A DNA stretch of 10,595 nt, from contig JADFNT010000034.1 in assembly GCA_022563215.1 (NCBI GenBank), positions 1 to 10,595 on the forward strand. The letters are read 5' to 3'. Below, piece by piece: positions 1,745 to 5,109 of this stretch. Origin of the DNA: Pseudomonadota bacterium (lineage in GTDB: Bacteria > Pseudomonadota > Alphaproteobacteria > Rhodospirillales > Casp-alpha2). The notes under the pieces are model-generated. The model was not told the origin of the DNA. It was given only the letters and a program-made list of their open reading frames with translations, and ran no database searches. Position numbers and translations under genes: made by a program. The stretch's first letter is position 1. Each line of letters starts with the position of its first letter.

Positions 1745-2794
1745 TCAGGGGCCCGATATCGGGCATTTTCCATATCCGGCGGGACATAGACGGGTTCCAT
1801 CCGCCGGACATAGGGCCCTTTCGCTGCCCAGGGCCGCTTTGACCAACCCTGCCAAGCCGCCGAGGAAGTCTTCCTGGACGCCAAGGGCCGGGACCCGGAC
1901 ATAATGAGGAACTCCTCGCTCATGGGCCAGGTCCCGGTACTGGATGTCAAGCTCGACCAGGGTTTCCGAATGCTCGGAAACGAAAGCCACTGGCACCACG
2001 ACGACCGGCACCCGGTCGCTGGCGGCGCGTAAAATTTCTTCGTCGATGGAGGGGCCGATCCATTGCAGCGGCCCGACACGGCTTTGGTAGCACACCGCCC
2101 AATCGAGGTCGGGAGAATCAAGCGCATCAATAATGGCCCGGGTTGTTTGTTCGATCTGCCATGGGTAGGGATCGCCCCGGGCGACGATTTTTTTCGGCAG
2201 GCCATGAGCGGAAAAGAGAATTCGGGGCCGGCCATGGCTTTTCGCTTCCGCGATCGCCGGGCCGATCAGCGCCGCCTGGCCCCGGATAAGTCCCGGGTCC
2301 GCCGGATAGCAGCAGATGGCGCGGGTCGGACATTTCAGGCCCTGGGTTGCGGCCTGGGCATGCCATTCCTTCAATGACGAGGCCGTGGTGGTGGTCGAAT
2401 ACTGAGGATAAAGCGGCAGCAGAATAATTTCATCCGGGCCGAAGGCCTTAACGGCCTGGACCGTTTCTTCGCTCATCGGGTGCCAGTAACGCATGGCAAT
2501 AAAAACCCGGACCTCCCCGGCCCCGTCTTCGAGCCCGTCTTCGAGCCGACGGGTCAGGGCGTTGGCCTGGGCCTGGGTTTCCTCCAACAGGGGAGACTTG
2601 CCACCGAGGTTTTTAAAAATCTCTCGCACCTCCGGAGCGCGGCGCCGCGAAATGAATTTGGCCAGAATCCACCGCAGCGGACCCGGGACTTCGATAATGG
2701 CGGCATCGTTGAACAGGTTGAAAAGAAACGGCTCAATCGCCCGCGGGCCATCGGGGCCGCCGAGATTGAACAGGACGACCGCCAATCGTTCCAT
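1745..2794 (-). CDS. hemH: Ferrochelatase, with cysteines typical of [2Fe-2S] forms
   Basis: Inserts Fe2+ into protoporphyrin IX, the final step to protoheme. 349 aa from ATG at 2794. That ATG shares its A with the hemE stop (TGATG), and AAGGAAG lies upstream; a TTG one codon earlier is a less likely start. Motifs: LFNLGGPDG near residue 8, MRYWHP at 101-106, LPLYPQYS at 126-133, FSAHGLP at 194-200 with catalytic-type His197, and SEHSETL at 273-279 with Glu277. There is an internal C161-C162 pair and a C-terminal cluster C329, C337, C344. [2Fe-2S] clusters are known in ferrochelatases of Caulobacter and Mycobacterium, with one internal and several C-terminal cysteines, so this is likely an iron-sulfur form (inference from spacing). 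The gene is translationally coupled to hemE and 15 bp from hemJ. Confidence 0.96.
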   Translation of the reverse strand: MERLAVVLFNLGGPDGPRAIEPFLFNLFNDAAIIEVPGPLRWILAKFISRRRAPEVREIFKNLGGKSPLLEETQAQANALTRRLEDGLEDGAGEVRVFIAMRYWHPMSEETVQAVKAFGPDEIILLPLYPQYSTTTTASSLKEWHAQAATQGLKCPTRAICCYPADPGLIRGQAALIGPAIAEAKSHGRPRILFSAHGLPKKIVARGDPYPWQIEQTTRAIIDALDSPDLDWAVCYQSRVGPLQWIGPSIDEEILRAASDRVPVVVVPVAFVSEHSETLVELDIQYRDLAHERGVPHYVRVPALGVQEDFLGGLAGLVKAALGSERALCPADGTRLCPAGYGKCPISGP

Positions 2795-3852
2795 CAACGG
2801 ACTTCCTTGGCCGTCGCCGGCCAGCCCAAGACGAGTTCGGCCACCCGGGCTACATGTTCCGGCGGCGTTGTCGGTAATATACCGTGGCCGAGGTTGAAGA
2901 CGAACGGGCCTTTTGACAGGGCTTTGAGGATTGCCATCGTTTCCCGGTCCAGGGCTTCGCCGCCTTCGACCAGGACCTGGTTATCCAGGTTGCCCTGGAC
3001 GGTGCATTTCGGTTGTAGGGTCTCGGCAATCCATGCCAGGGACGTATCCTGATCCAGGCTGATGGCGTCGATCCCGGTGCCGGTGACGAAAGGCTCCGCC
3101 AACGGCCCGACGTTGCGGGGAAATCCGATTACCGGAACCCCGGGGCAGCTTTCCCGCAGCCGATCGACGATCCGCCGCGTCGGTTCGATGGACCAGCGAT
3201 GGAACTGTCGTTCGTTCAATATCCCGGCCCAGCTATCGAATAATTGAATGATTTCGGCGCCGCTTTCGACCTGCCGGGTCAAATACGTCGCTATTGCTTC
3301 GACCAACAGGTTGATTAATTCCCGGAATTCATCGGAAGCGTCATCGGCCCATTTCCGTATCTGGCTGCAATCCGTCCCGCCCCGCCCTTCGACCATGTAA
3401 ACGGCGACCGTCCACGGCGCGCCGGCGAAACCGATCAGGGCGGTTTGTTCGGGGATTTCATTGGCTAATCTTGCGATGGTTTCGAAAACGGGTGCCAGAT
3501 GGTCTTCGATCCGATCTGCCGAAAGTTTATTCATCTCGGCGATGGAGCGGATGGGTTCGAGCACCGGGCCTTCGCCTTCGCGAAATTCGACTTTTTGACC
3601 CAGGGCATCAGGCAAAACCAGAATGTCGGAAAACAGGATCGCCGCATCCATGTTGTAGCGGCGAAGTGGCTGTAGAGTAGCCTCGACCGCCAAATCAGGA
3701 CTGTAACAGAAATCGAGAAAATTTTTCGACTGCTTCCGCAGCTCCCGGTATTCGGGCAAATACCGGCCCGCCTGGCGCATCAACCAGAACGGCGGCCTTT
3801 TCAAGACTTCGCCCTTCAGGGCTCGCAACATGAGTTTTCGGTCTGAAGTCAT
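2794..3852 (-). CDS. hemE: Uroporphyrinogen decarboxylase
   Basis: Removes four acetate carboxyls from uroporphyrinogen III to give coproporphyrinogen III in the cytoplasm. 352 aa, normal for the family. Visible signatures: PPFWLMRQAGRYLPEY at residues 20-35 (family signature 1), DAAILFSDIL with the substrate-contacting Asp76, GFAGAPWTVAVYMVEG near 140-155 (signature 2), FDSWAG, GFPRN, and FNLGHGILPTTPPEHV near the C-terminus with its conserved His. The usual GNLDP motif reads GNLDN here, a mild deviation. Start ATG at 3852; only a weak ribosome-binding site is visible. It leads the leftward hemE-hemH-hemJ group, overlapping hemH by one base. Its promoter must lie in the adjacent origin-like region, as in Caulobacter where hemE transcription begins inside Cori. 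Confidence 0.97.
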   Translation of the reverse strand: MTSDRKLMLRALKGEVLKRPPFWLMRQAGRYLPEYRELRKQSKNFLDFCYSPDLAVEATLQPLRRYNMDAAILFSDILVLPDALGQKVEFREGEGPVLEPIRSIAEMNKLSADRIEDHLAPVFETIARLANEIPEQTALIGFAGAPWTVAVYMVEGRGGTDCSQIRKWADDASDEFRELINLLVEAIATYLTRQVESGAEIIQLFDSWAGILNERQFHRWSIEPTRRIVDRLRESCPGVPVIGFPRNVGPLAEPFVTGTGIDAISLDQDTSLAWIAETLQPKCTVQGNLDNQVLVEGGEALDRETMAILKALSKGPFVFNLGHGILPTTPPEHVARVAELVLGWPATAKEVR

Positions 3853-3898
3853 GGCCTGATTTGATGAGAGGTTCGGAAGATTTTCTTTCTTAGTACAA

Positions 3899-3920
3899 GA
3901 TATATTTATTTATAAATAAA
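3899..3920. other. A/T-rich block, candidate DNA unwinding element
   Basis: Positions 3901-3920 contain only A and T. Within them 3905-3920 (TTTATTTATAAATAAA) is a perfect 16-bp palindrome. It lies on the hemE side of the candidate origin, about 35 bp from the first DnaA-box-like site, a usual place for the melting region. It may also contribute a -10 element for hemE. The surrounding region is GC-rich, so the contrast is sharp. Confidence 0.6.
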
Positions 3921-3955
3921 GGTAGTGGTAGTTGTTGTGCGGTGAATCCGGGGGA

Positions 3956-3964
3956 TTATCAACA
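3956..3964 (+). promoter_or_regulatory. DnaA-box-like site TTATCAACA
   Basis: 8 of 9 bases match TTATCCACA (A for C at position 6). It sits in the loop of a short inverted repeat, CCGGG (3948-3952) / CCCGG (3966-3970), and is the box closest to the A/T block. Confidence 0.55.
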
Positions 3965-4142
3965 ACCCGGGGCTTTATCACGGATAAGGAAAAACTTGGG
4001 GTTTGACCCAGTCGGGGCTGTGTATTTGTTGTTTAAAAGAAACTTTTTTGGAGAAAAGCGCGGCTTGTAGCGGAAATGCTTATAGCGTGATTTACCGGGA
4101 TAAAATTGAAAAGGAAGCTTGGGAAACGATAATTTCCAACCA

Positions 4143-4162
4143 GGTTGATAATGTTTTGCACC
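4143..4162. promoter_or_regulatory. Pair of opposed DnaA-box-like sites
   Basis: TTATCAACC on the minus strand (4151-4143) and TTTTGCACC on the plus strand (4154-4162) lie 2 bp apart and point away from each other. The second matches TTWTNCACA at 8 of 9 positions, the first matches TTATCCACA at 7 of 9. Close paired boxes are common in origins. Confidence 0.45.
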
Positions 4163-4231
4163 CATGAATCCCCTGGTGTATGGACACGTGACAAAACCGG
4201 ATAAATCGGCCCCATGACGATATAACCGTTC

Positions 4232-4240
4232 TTATCCCCA
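4232..4240 (+). promoter_or_regulatory. DnaA-box-like site TTATCCCCA
   Basis: 8 of 9 bases match TTATCCACA (C for A at position 7). It lies 35 bp before the ppsR start, so DnaA bound here could also affect ppsR transcription (inference). Confidence 0.55.
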
Positions 4241-4275
4241 AACGGCTCACAGCCCAGGTAACTCACAGAAGGCAA

Positions 4276-5109
4276 ATGAACGAAACCTCCTTGAAATCCT
4301 TTCATCTTCATCTGGTTTCAGACTCGACGGGGGAAACCGTCGGCATAGTCGCGCGTGCCAGCCTGGTGCAATTCGATTCAATTGATGCCAAGGAGCACCT
4401 CTGGCCCATGGTCAGAACGGAAAACCAGGTACAGGAAGTGATTGTCGGCATCGGCGAAAACCCGGGGTTTGTTCTTTACACCATCATCAACGAGGATCTG
4501 CGCAACCTCCTCGAAGACGGATGCCGAAAGCTCCAGGTTCCCTGTATAGCGGTGCTCGATCCGGTAATCGCCGAACTGGGCGCCCATCTGGACGCCGAAA
4601 TCCTCGCCCAGCCGGGCCGGCAGCATGTCATGGACGCGGAATATTTCAGCCGCATCGAAGCCATGCACTTCGTCCTCAGCCACGATGACGGCCAATCGAC
4701 CCGGGACCTGGAACAGGCCGATGTAGTGTTGCTGGGCGTGTCGAGGACATCGAAGACCCCGACCAGCATTTATCTAGCTAACCGCGGCATCAAGACCGCC
4801 AATATTCCGATCGTGCCGGGCTCTGAACTTCCCGAAGAACTGTTTGCGGCCAGCAGCCCCCTGATTATCGGTCTCACCAAGGATCCGAAACGGCTGGTCG
4901 AGATTCGTCAACAACGCTTGCGCATACTTGAACAGGATGAGGAAACGGATTACGTCGACCTGGATAAGGTGTCCAAGGAAATCAACGACGCACGGCGCCT
5001 GTTCACCAAGCACGATTGGCCGGTGATCAACGTCAGCCGTAAATCCATCGAGGAAACCGCGGCAACTATCATTCAATTGTACAACCGCCGCCGGGAGCAG
5101 GACTCCTGA
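4276..5109 (+). CDS. ppsR: Pyruvate phosphate dikinase / PEP synthase regulatory protein (DUF299, RP001-like)
   Basis: Bifunctional serine/threonine kinase and phosphorylase: ADP-dependent phosphorylation inactivates PPDK or PEP synthase, and phosphate-dependent pyrophosphorylysis reactivates it. 277 aa, normal for the family. Visible: N-terminal FHLHLVSDSTGETVGIVARA (residues 9-28), HFVLSHDDGQ (131-140), the nucleotide-binding loop GVSRTSKTPTS (154-164), YLANRG, NIPIVPGSELPEEL, and GLTKDPKRL with the downstream YVDLDKVSKEINDARRLF. The start ATG has AGAAGG three bases upstream. Which target enzyme is present cannot be told from this window; alphaproteobacteria often have PPDK. The gene flanks the candidate origin, and maf follows directly, overlapping its stop if maf starts at CTG. 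Product confidence is high; the symbol follows E. coli usage. Confidence 0.95.
   Translation: MNETSLKSFHLHLVSDSTGETVGIVARASLVQFDSIDAKEHLWPMVRTENQVQEVIVGIGENPGFVLYTIINEDLRNLLEDGCRKLQVPCIAVLDPVIAELGAHLDAEILAQPGRQHVMDAEYFSRIEAMHFVLSHDDGQSTRDLEQADVVLLGVSRTSKTPTSIYLANRGIKTANIPIVPGSELPEELFAASSPLIIGLTKDPKRLVEIRQQRLRILEQDEETDYVDLDKVSKEINDARRLFTKHDWPVINVSRKSIEETAATIIQLYNRRREQDS

Follow-up and report, generated by a model that had tools for sequence, protein, structure and literature searches.

The closest described counterparts of the locus analyzed here are the replication origins of Caulobacter crescentus (Cori) and Rickettsia prowazekii, which, in the available parts of the sources, are flanked by hemE and a COG1806 gene, are AT-rich and carry weak DnaA boxes only (PMC1914354, PMC4468827). 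According to the accessible portion of PMC4468827, CtrA sites are absent from other origins, except possibly that of Rickettsia. As for strand opening, a basal unwinding system has been described in which one DnaA box or a pair of boxes is separated from 5'-TAG trios by a spacer, the length of which peaks at 10-13 bp; starting at the boxes, DnaA loads onto the strand carrying the trios (PMC8287927, PMC6669920, PMC10316083, PMC7561715 and PMC10721633, each available in part). In Bacillus subtilis, Asn187 of DnaA reads the middle adenine of the trios, and G or T at this place harms opening and replication, while C is tolerated (PMC10721633). The oriC of Thermotoga maritima carries a TTATT motif, three TAG triplets, a GC-rich stretch and a DnaA box (PMC10316083).

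The hemE/PpsR intergenic region

The window, i.e., the whole stretch of DNA analyzed in this study, is the entire 10.6-kb contig (C272) of a 2.1-Mb genome bin, which comprises 397 contigs and is 74% complete. Its minus strand carries rho (cut), hemJ, hemH and hemE (2794-3852), followed by a gap of 423 bp with 43% GC (3853-4275); the genes beyond the gap, PpsR (DUF299; 4276-5109), a maf-like gene, aroE, coaE and dnaQ, lie on the plus strand. The gap is thus non-coding with divergent flanking genes, as the initial annotation had it, and these genes are the same as those around Cori, the hemE/RP001 junction with which it had compared the locus (PMC1914354, PMC4468827). We conclude that the gap is very probably the chromosomal origin.

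This gene arrangement is widespread among relatives: divergent hemE adjoins PpsR in 105 of the 112 fetched PpsR sequences, a redundant set with 92 distinct gaps, and the gap measures 271-587 bp. Five of the seven loci without hemE start near a contig end. The other two (L066 and L071) have 6 kb on each side of PpsR with no hemE in either direction, and the origin context may have been rearranged or lost there. The loci of the same genus belong to uncultured bins labelled Rhodospirillales, Rhodospirillaceae, Alphaproteobacteria or Proteobacteria (e.g., MarineAlpha3_Bin2).

The gap holds both an AT-rich region and a cluster of DnaA boxes, albeit imperfect ones, as do the origins between hemE and COG1806. 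The A/T block, initially given as 20 bp, is an A/T-only run of 21 bp (3900-3920). It overlaps 3880-3919 (z 4.8), the 40-bp stretch of lowest duplex stability in the window and a probable unwinding element; the second least stable stretch, at 4019, is also inside the gap. The recount agreed with the initial annotation on eight TTATC/GATAA cores in ~280 bp: those at 3956, 3975 and 4232 are on the plus strand, and those at 3983, 4099, 4128, 4147 and 4200 on the minus strand. This is the top enriched 5-mer in the gap (8 observed vs. 1.08 expected). None of 5000 dinucleotide shuffles of the same 423 bp reached eight cores, and a scan in 20-bp steps found at most four per 423-bp stretch elsewhere in the window. 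A perfect TTATCCACA is absent from the gap, and the best sites match at eight of nine positions, again as initially noted: the putative DnaA boxes TTATCAACA (3956-3964, plus strand) and TTATCCCCA (4232-4240, plus strand). Whole-box counts are weaker evidence than the enrichment of TTATC cores, as 37 of 5000 shuffles reach the two boxes with at most one mismatch, and 369 of 5000 the four boxes with at most two.

No Rfam match was found anywhere in the window, and no terminator-like site in 3800-4330. GANTC sites were not enriched in the gaps (mean 1.50 per gap vs. 1.45 expected). Separately, we noticed an imperfect 19-bp direct repeat (4086-4104 and 4187-4205), the copies of which are 74% alike, lie 101 bp apart and carry one GATAA core each.

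A conserved triplet module beside the AT block

An alignment of nine members of the genus showed that the parts kept in the gap are the AT block with AAGG and the adjacent triplets, GGGGATTA (9/9), a block at ~4147-4184 and the last box. The initial annotation had proposed to align the region with related genomes to see whether the TTATC cores are conserved. Most of the single cores are not conserved in the genus, whereas GGGGATTA at 3951, the triplet array and the box at 4232 are; the latter is identical in seven of nine rows, a perfect TTATCCACA in one and TTACCCCCA in one. The module (3923-3958) reads as the AT block, five T-D-G triplets on the plus strand (TAG TGG TAG TTG TTG, 3923-3937), a 13-bp spacer and GGGGATTA. 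The box-proximal part of the spacer holds a degenerate reverse DnaA box, GGTGAATCC (3941-3949, minus strand), with four mismatches to TGTGGATAA. The anchor GGGGATTA lies in the 9-mer GGGGGATTA (3950-3958, minus strand; three mismatches to TGTGGATAA) and recurs in order-level rows as well. The box TTATCAACA overlaps the anchor and is missing in some of the genus rows.

A similar layout was visible in most of 52 order-level gaps. When an array was accepted only with nine of the ten T and G letters and AT-rich DNA upstream, it was found in 42 of 50 gaps chosen independently of the pattern, and in none of the 50 reverse-complemented, 50 reversed or 50 shuffled control gaps. We also searched whole genomes with the pattern TNGx5-N13-GGGGATTA. 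In 61 relatives, 64 matches with at most two mismatches were obtained, of which 36, in 36 genomes, were at the hemE/PpsR gap (14/14 exact matches, 17/20 with one mismatch and 5/30 with two); the 28 matches elsewhere are about as many as the reversed pattern gave (24). Because the pattern had been drawn from some of these relatives, we searched further genomes. In 32 held-out genomes (G085 and G063, the sources of L047 and L041, being left out), 29 of 34 matches with at most one mismatch adjoin hemE (14/14 exact and 15/20 with one mismatch), the other neighbour being PpsR in 27 cases and maf in two (L245 and L246). In the latter two genomes (G117 and G095), the module lies between maf and hemE, and the best PpsR match is weaker and on another contig. 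The pattern is far from universal: with at most one mismatch it is missing in 230 of 297 sampled members of the order, and with at most two in 20 of the 56 relatives that have PpsR.

For the remaining counts we used a set of 78 order-level gaps, from which the Novispirillum loci L068 and L069 and two loci without a usable hemE gap (L252 and L253) were left out; five of the 78 had no anchor and seven no accepted array. As 28 of the gaps came from genomes picked through pattern matches, which favours T and G, we repeated the counts without them; the middle base cannot be biased in this way, because the pattern leaves it free. Rhizobiales-type loci (Ensifer, Sinorhizobium and Aquabacter), in which no such array was seen by eye, were kept out of the counts. 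With G[GA]GGAT preceded by the most AT-rich DNA as the sole anchor, 73 gaps were combined into a profile. It showed five T-D-G triplets, a spacer in which a degenerate reverse DnaA box is embedded, GGGGATTA and, at +12 to +20, TTATCCACA, which is the E. coli consensus. A box with at most two mismatches occurs at this place in 28 of the 73 rows and in no row at seven other offsets; the 48 rows chosen independently of the pattern gave the same consensus (18/48, and none at other offsets). The window has no box at +12 to +20, and carries instead TTATCAACA overlapping GGGGATTA. At the place of the spacer box, a perfect TGTGGATAA was found in G052, where it stands just before GGGGATCA, and in L068; to judge from G052, the spacer may itself be a box. 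Next to the array, possible tandem co-oriented boxes are degenerate in the window, and the spacer consensus is of the GTGAAT type; in G052 the proximal box is perfect.

The middle base of the triplets varies, but is hardly ever C. In 71 gaps, with the register set by T and G alone, it was T in 166 triplets, A in 150, G in 38 and C in one; C thus occurs in 1/355, compared with a C content of 18% in the gaps (binomial p 8e-30, kinship ignored). There was no middle C in the 160 triplets of 32 redundancy-reduced gaps, nor in the 46 gaps chosen independently of the pattern (A 115, T 90, G 25, C 0). In Caulobacterales, the layout is related, and the gaps carry NNG triplets with no middle C (0/124, against a background of 31%). 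The triplet closest to the box is TAG in 17 of 26 rows, a figure biased by the register score, which favours TAG; the spacer is 14 bp in 22 of 26, followed by GGGGA, and one gap (L076) gave no array fit. In Phenylobacterium-type gaps (L085, L087 and others), GGCCATACC and GGTATGGCC recur by eye and might be a site for an origin regulator.

It could be supposed that the conserved blocks serve hemE and PpsR as promoters or operators and are not parts of an origin. Divergent genes need promoters, one promoter-like match was found at 4106-4133, and an operator function is conceivable for the genus-specific block at 4147-4184. This block (GATAATGTTTTGCACC..CTGGTGTATGGA) consists of TATAATGTTTTACACAGG and, 26 bp from the block start, CCGGTGTATGGA, and contains an imperfect inverted repeat, TACACAGG/CCGGTGTA; it is missing from most of the order-level gaps looked at, and is a possible regulator site inside the origin. 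Nevertheless, promoter-like matches are at chance level (one found vs. 0.8 expected), the module stays by hemE where maf replaces PpsR, the profile yields a DnaA box consensus, and the GC skew of relatives switches at the hemE/PpsR junction (see below). We therefore regard promoters or operators as a very unlikely account of the conserved blocks.

The imperfect boxes call for an explanation of their own, and the initial annotation had offered two, relaxed specificity of the DnaA protein or reliance on many weak boxes. The absence of a perfect box from the gap would suit the former. Domain IV of the DnaA of the bin is, however, close to 1j1v, which we take to be E. coli DnaA (E = 5e-30), and the GGRDHTTV stretch is identical. 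The gaps of relatives also give the consensus TTATCCACA at one place, and a perfect box occurs in 12 of 52 distinct order-level gaps, one of them in the same genus (L011). Relaxed specificity is therefore highly improbable. Because domain IV matches 1j1v so closely, the other explanation, many weak boxes as described for Cori in the available part of PMC4468827, fits better and can be retained.

GC skew in relatives and the location of dnaA

The genome to which the window belongs is a bin of 397 contigs, and so evidence from GC skew was taken from relatives. We sampled skew as 20-kb stretches in three single-contig relatives (G027, G052 and G026), leaving stretches with masked bases unused (C1 2217368-2237367 and 3628421-3648420 in G027, and C1 30000-49999 in G052). 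In G027, the conserved module is at 432,824, and the cumulative skew (40 kb examined) reaches its minimum 172 bp away, at 432,996; the skew turns from negative to positive at the minimum, and PpsR lies at 431,685-432,491. In G052, the switch and minimum are ~4 kb from PpsR, with dnaA ~410 kb off if the contig is circular, and in a few stretches of the left arm the skew is weakly positive or close to zero. The sign change in G026 falls at 3.822 Mb, the site of PpsR; the minimum (60 kb examined) is 11 kb further, because the skew stays near zero there, as it does for more than 100 kb of the right arm. The initial annotation had called for a skew analysis and named a minimum elsewhere in the genome as grounds for rejecting an origin here. 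The sign changes at the hemE/PpsR junction in all three relatives sampled, and no minimum elsewhere was found in them, apart from the 11-kb offset in G026. In four of four single-contig relatives, the best parB match lies on the hemE side at a distance of 14-18 kb. In the sampled stretches, GGGNAGGG was too rare for its strand counts to be used.

The dnaA-dnaN region is a common origin site in other bacteria. If the origin were there, the gap at 3853-4275 would be merely regulatory, and indeed an intact dnaA neighbours dnaN on another contig of the same bin (C155). On the other hand, the skew does not switch at dnaA in G027 (where it lies at 175 kb), G052 or G026. In addition, the 363 bp upstream of dnaA contain no TTATC core, and no 423-bp stretch of contig C155 contains more than two. 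We thus give almost no credence to an origin at dnaA-dnaN. An origin gated by CtrA as in Caulobacter has an equally slender chance despite the flanking genes shared with Cori, as TTAA-N7-TTAA occurs nowhere in the gap of the window and in only 2 of 78 order-level gaps, in contrast to 23 of 26 Caulobacterales gaps. CtrA sites are a feature of a subset of origins between hemE and COG1806, not of the whole class. The scan for an IHF consensus likewise found no site in the gap of the window, and matches in 8 of the 78 order-level gaps.

DnaA residues and comparison with described unwinding systems

Aligned to chain 8btg, presumably B. subtilis DnaA, the DnaA of the bin keeps the single-strand-binding residues Ile190 and Glu228, as well as Glu183 and the Arg-finger position (Arg264), with Ile193 replaced by Leu and Asn196 by Lys. 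Two further positions differ, as Asn187 is replaced by Tyr and Arg202 by Lys. Among 33 order-level DnaA loci, 31 have Tyr at position 187 and two have His; among 29 class-level loci, the residue is Tyr in all but one, which has Phe. One of these three residues is thus found in 62 of 62 related DnaAs (the best-scoring loci of 57 and 75 matching genomes, plus four others). In the alignment to 2z4r, which we take to be T. maritima DnaA, this position is Asn. The numbering of 8btg matches that of the B. subtilis DnaA in PMC10721633. Comparing these sequences, we infer that reading of the middle base is relaxed or changed by the aromatic residue that stands where B. subtilis has Asn187. This link is a correlation between few lineages, and the change of Arg202 to Lys could matter too.

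The best explanation overall, in which we place high confidence, is that the gap is the chromosomal origin of an uncultured Rhodospirillales-type alphaproteobacterium and would be opened by a variant DnaA-trio system. DnaA would bind several weak boxes across the gap, with GGGGATTA and the degenerate box next to the triplets as its anchors. Its oligomer would then load onto the plus-strand triplets at 3923-3937, and the adjacent AT block would open for helicase loading. The system would be a variant of those of B. subtilis and T. maritima, with T and G retained at the outer places of every triplet and A, T or G, but not C, in the middle. It is attractive to speculate, rather tentatively, that the base-capture code for origin opening changed in alphaproteobacteria, i.e., that DnaAs with an aromatic residue at 187 read T-D-G, that the middle adenine of B. 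subtilis is lineage-specific, and that most of these elements escape the published trio rule.

The present case supports an origin call without a closed genome, and the module may serve as an origin signature in fragmented genomes of this group. An open remark in the accessible part of PMC10721633, to the effect that various single-strand sequences could be recognised by homologs of DnaA, also becomes directly testable with one residue (Tyr/Asn) and one base (T/A/C).

We found neither a T-D-G array nor the link to the Asn187-to-Tyr change described in the accessible, mostly open-access literature, which excludes the supplementary tables of PMC8287927, where alphaproteobacterial origins may be listed. 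Under the published rule, an array needs at least three consecutive NAN triplets, which TAG TGG TAG TTG TTG lacks and which 9 of 71 fitted arrays have (7/46 among gaps not chosen by pattern). The rule also needs a box with at most two mismatches within 16 bp of the triplets; GGGGGATTA has three mismatches, and TTATCAACA, with one, begins 18 bp after the array. Within the gap, our own version of the rule also picks out three further candidates, the boxes of which lie at 4047, 4143 and 4232; we take these to be probably due to chance. We would say that the module works like a basal unwinding system, and, as these two points of the rule failed, we regard it as a variant and not a certified member.

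The likeness to the B. subtilis system, i.e., boxes 6/7 and DnaA-trios, as described in the available part of PMC8287927, extends to an AT-rich region, triplets, spacer and box in the same order, to a spacer length near the published peak of 10-13 bp and to a proximal box weaker than the distal one. Unlike in B. subtilis, the middle base in the window is not a conserved adenine, the box adjacent to the array has three mismatches, and DnaA carries Tyr for Asn187 and Lys for Arg202. The oriC of T. maritima resembles the module in its AT module, TAG repeats and boxes, which come in the same order (PMC10316083, seen in part); its repeats are pure TAG, in contrast to those of the window, and its DnaA has Asn at the 187 position. 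With the origins of C. crescentus and R. prowazekii, the window shares the flanking genes, the AT-rich region and weak boxes only, and it differs from them in its T-D-G array and in lacking full CtrA sites and the IHF consensus. By position, anatomy and the skew of three relatives, the locus is an origin of the hemE-COG1806 kind without consensus CtrA or IHF sites; its location is of a known kind, and the trio variant, which is correlative, looks new.
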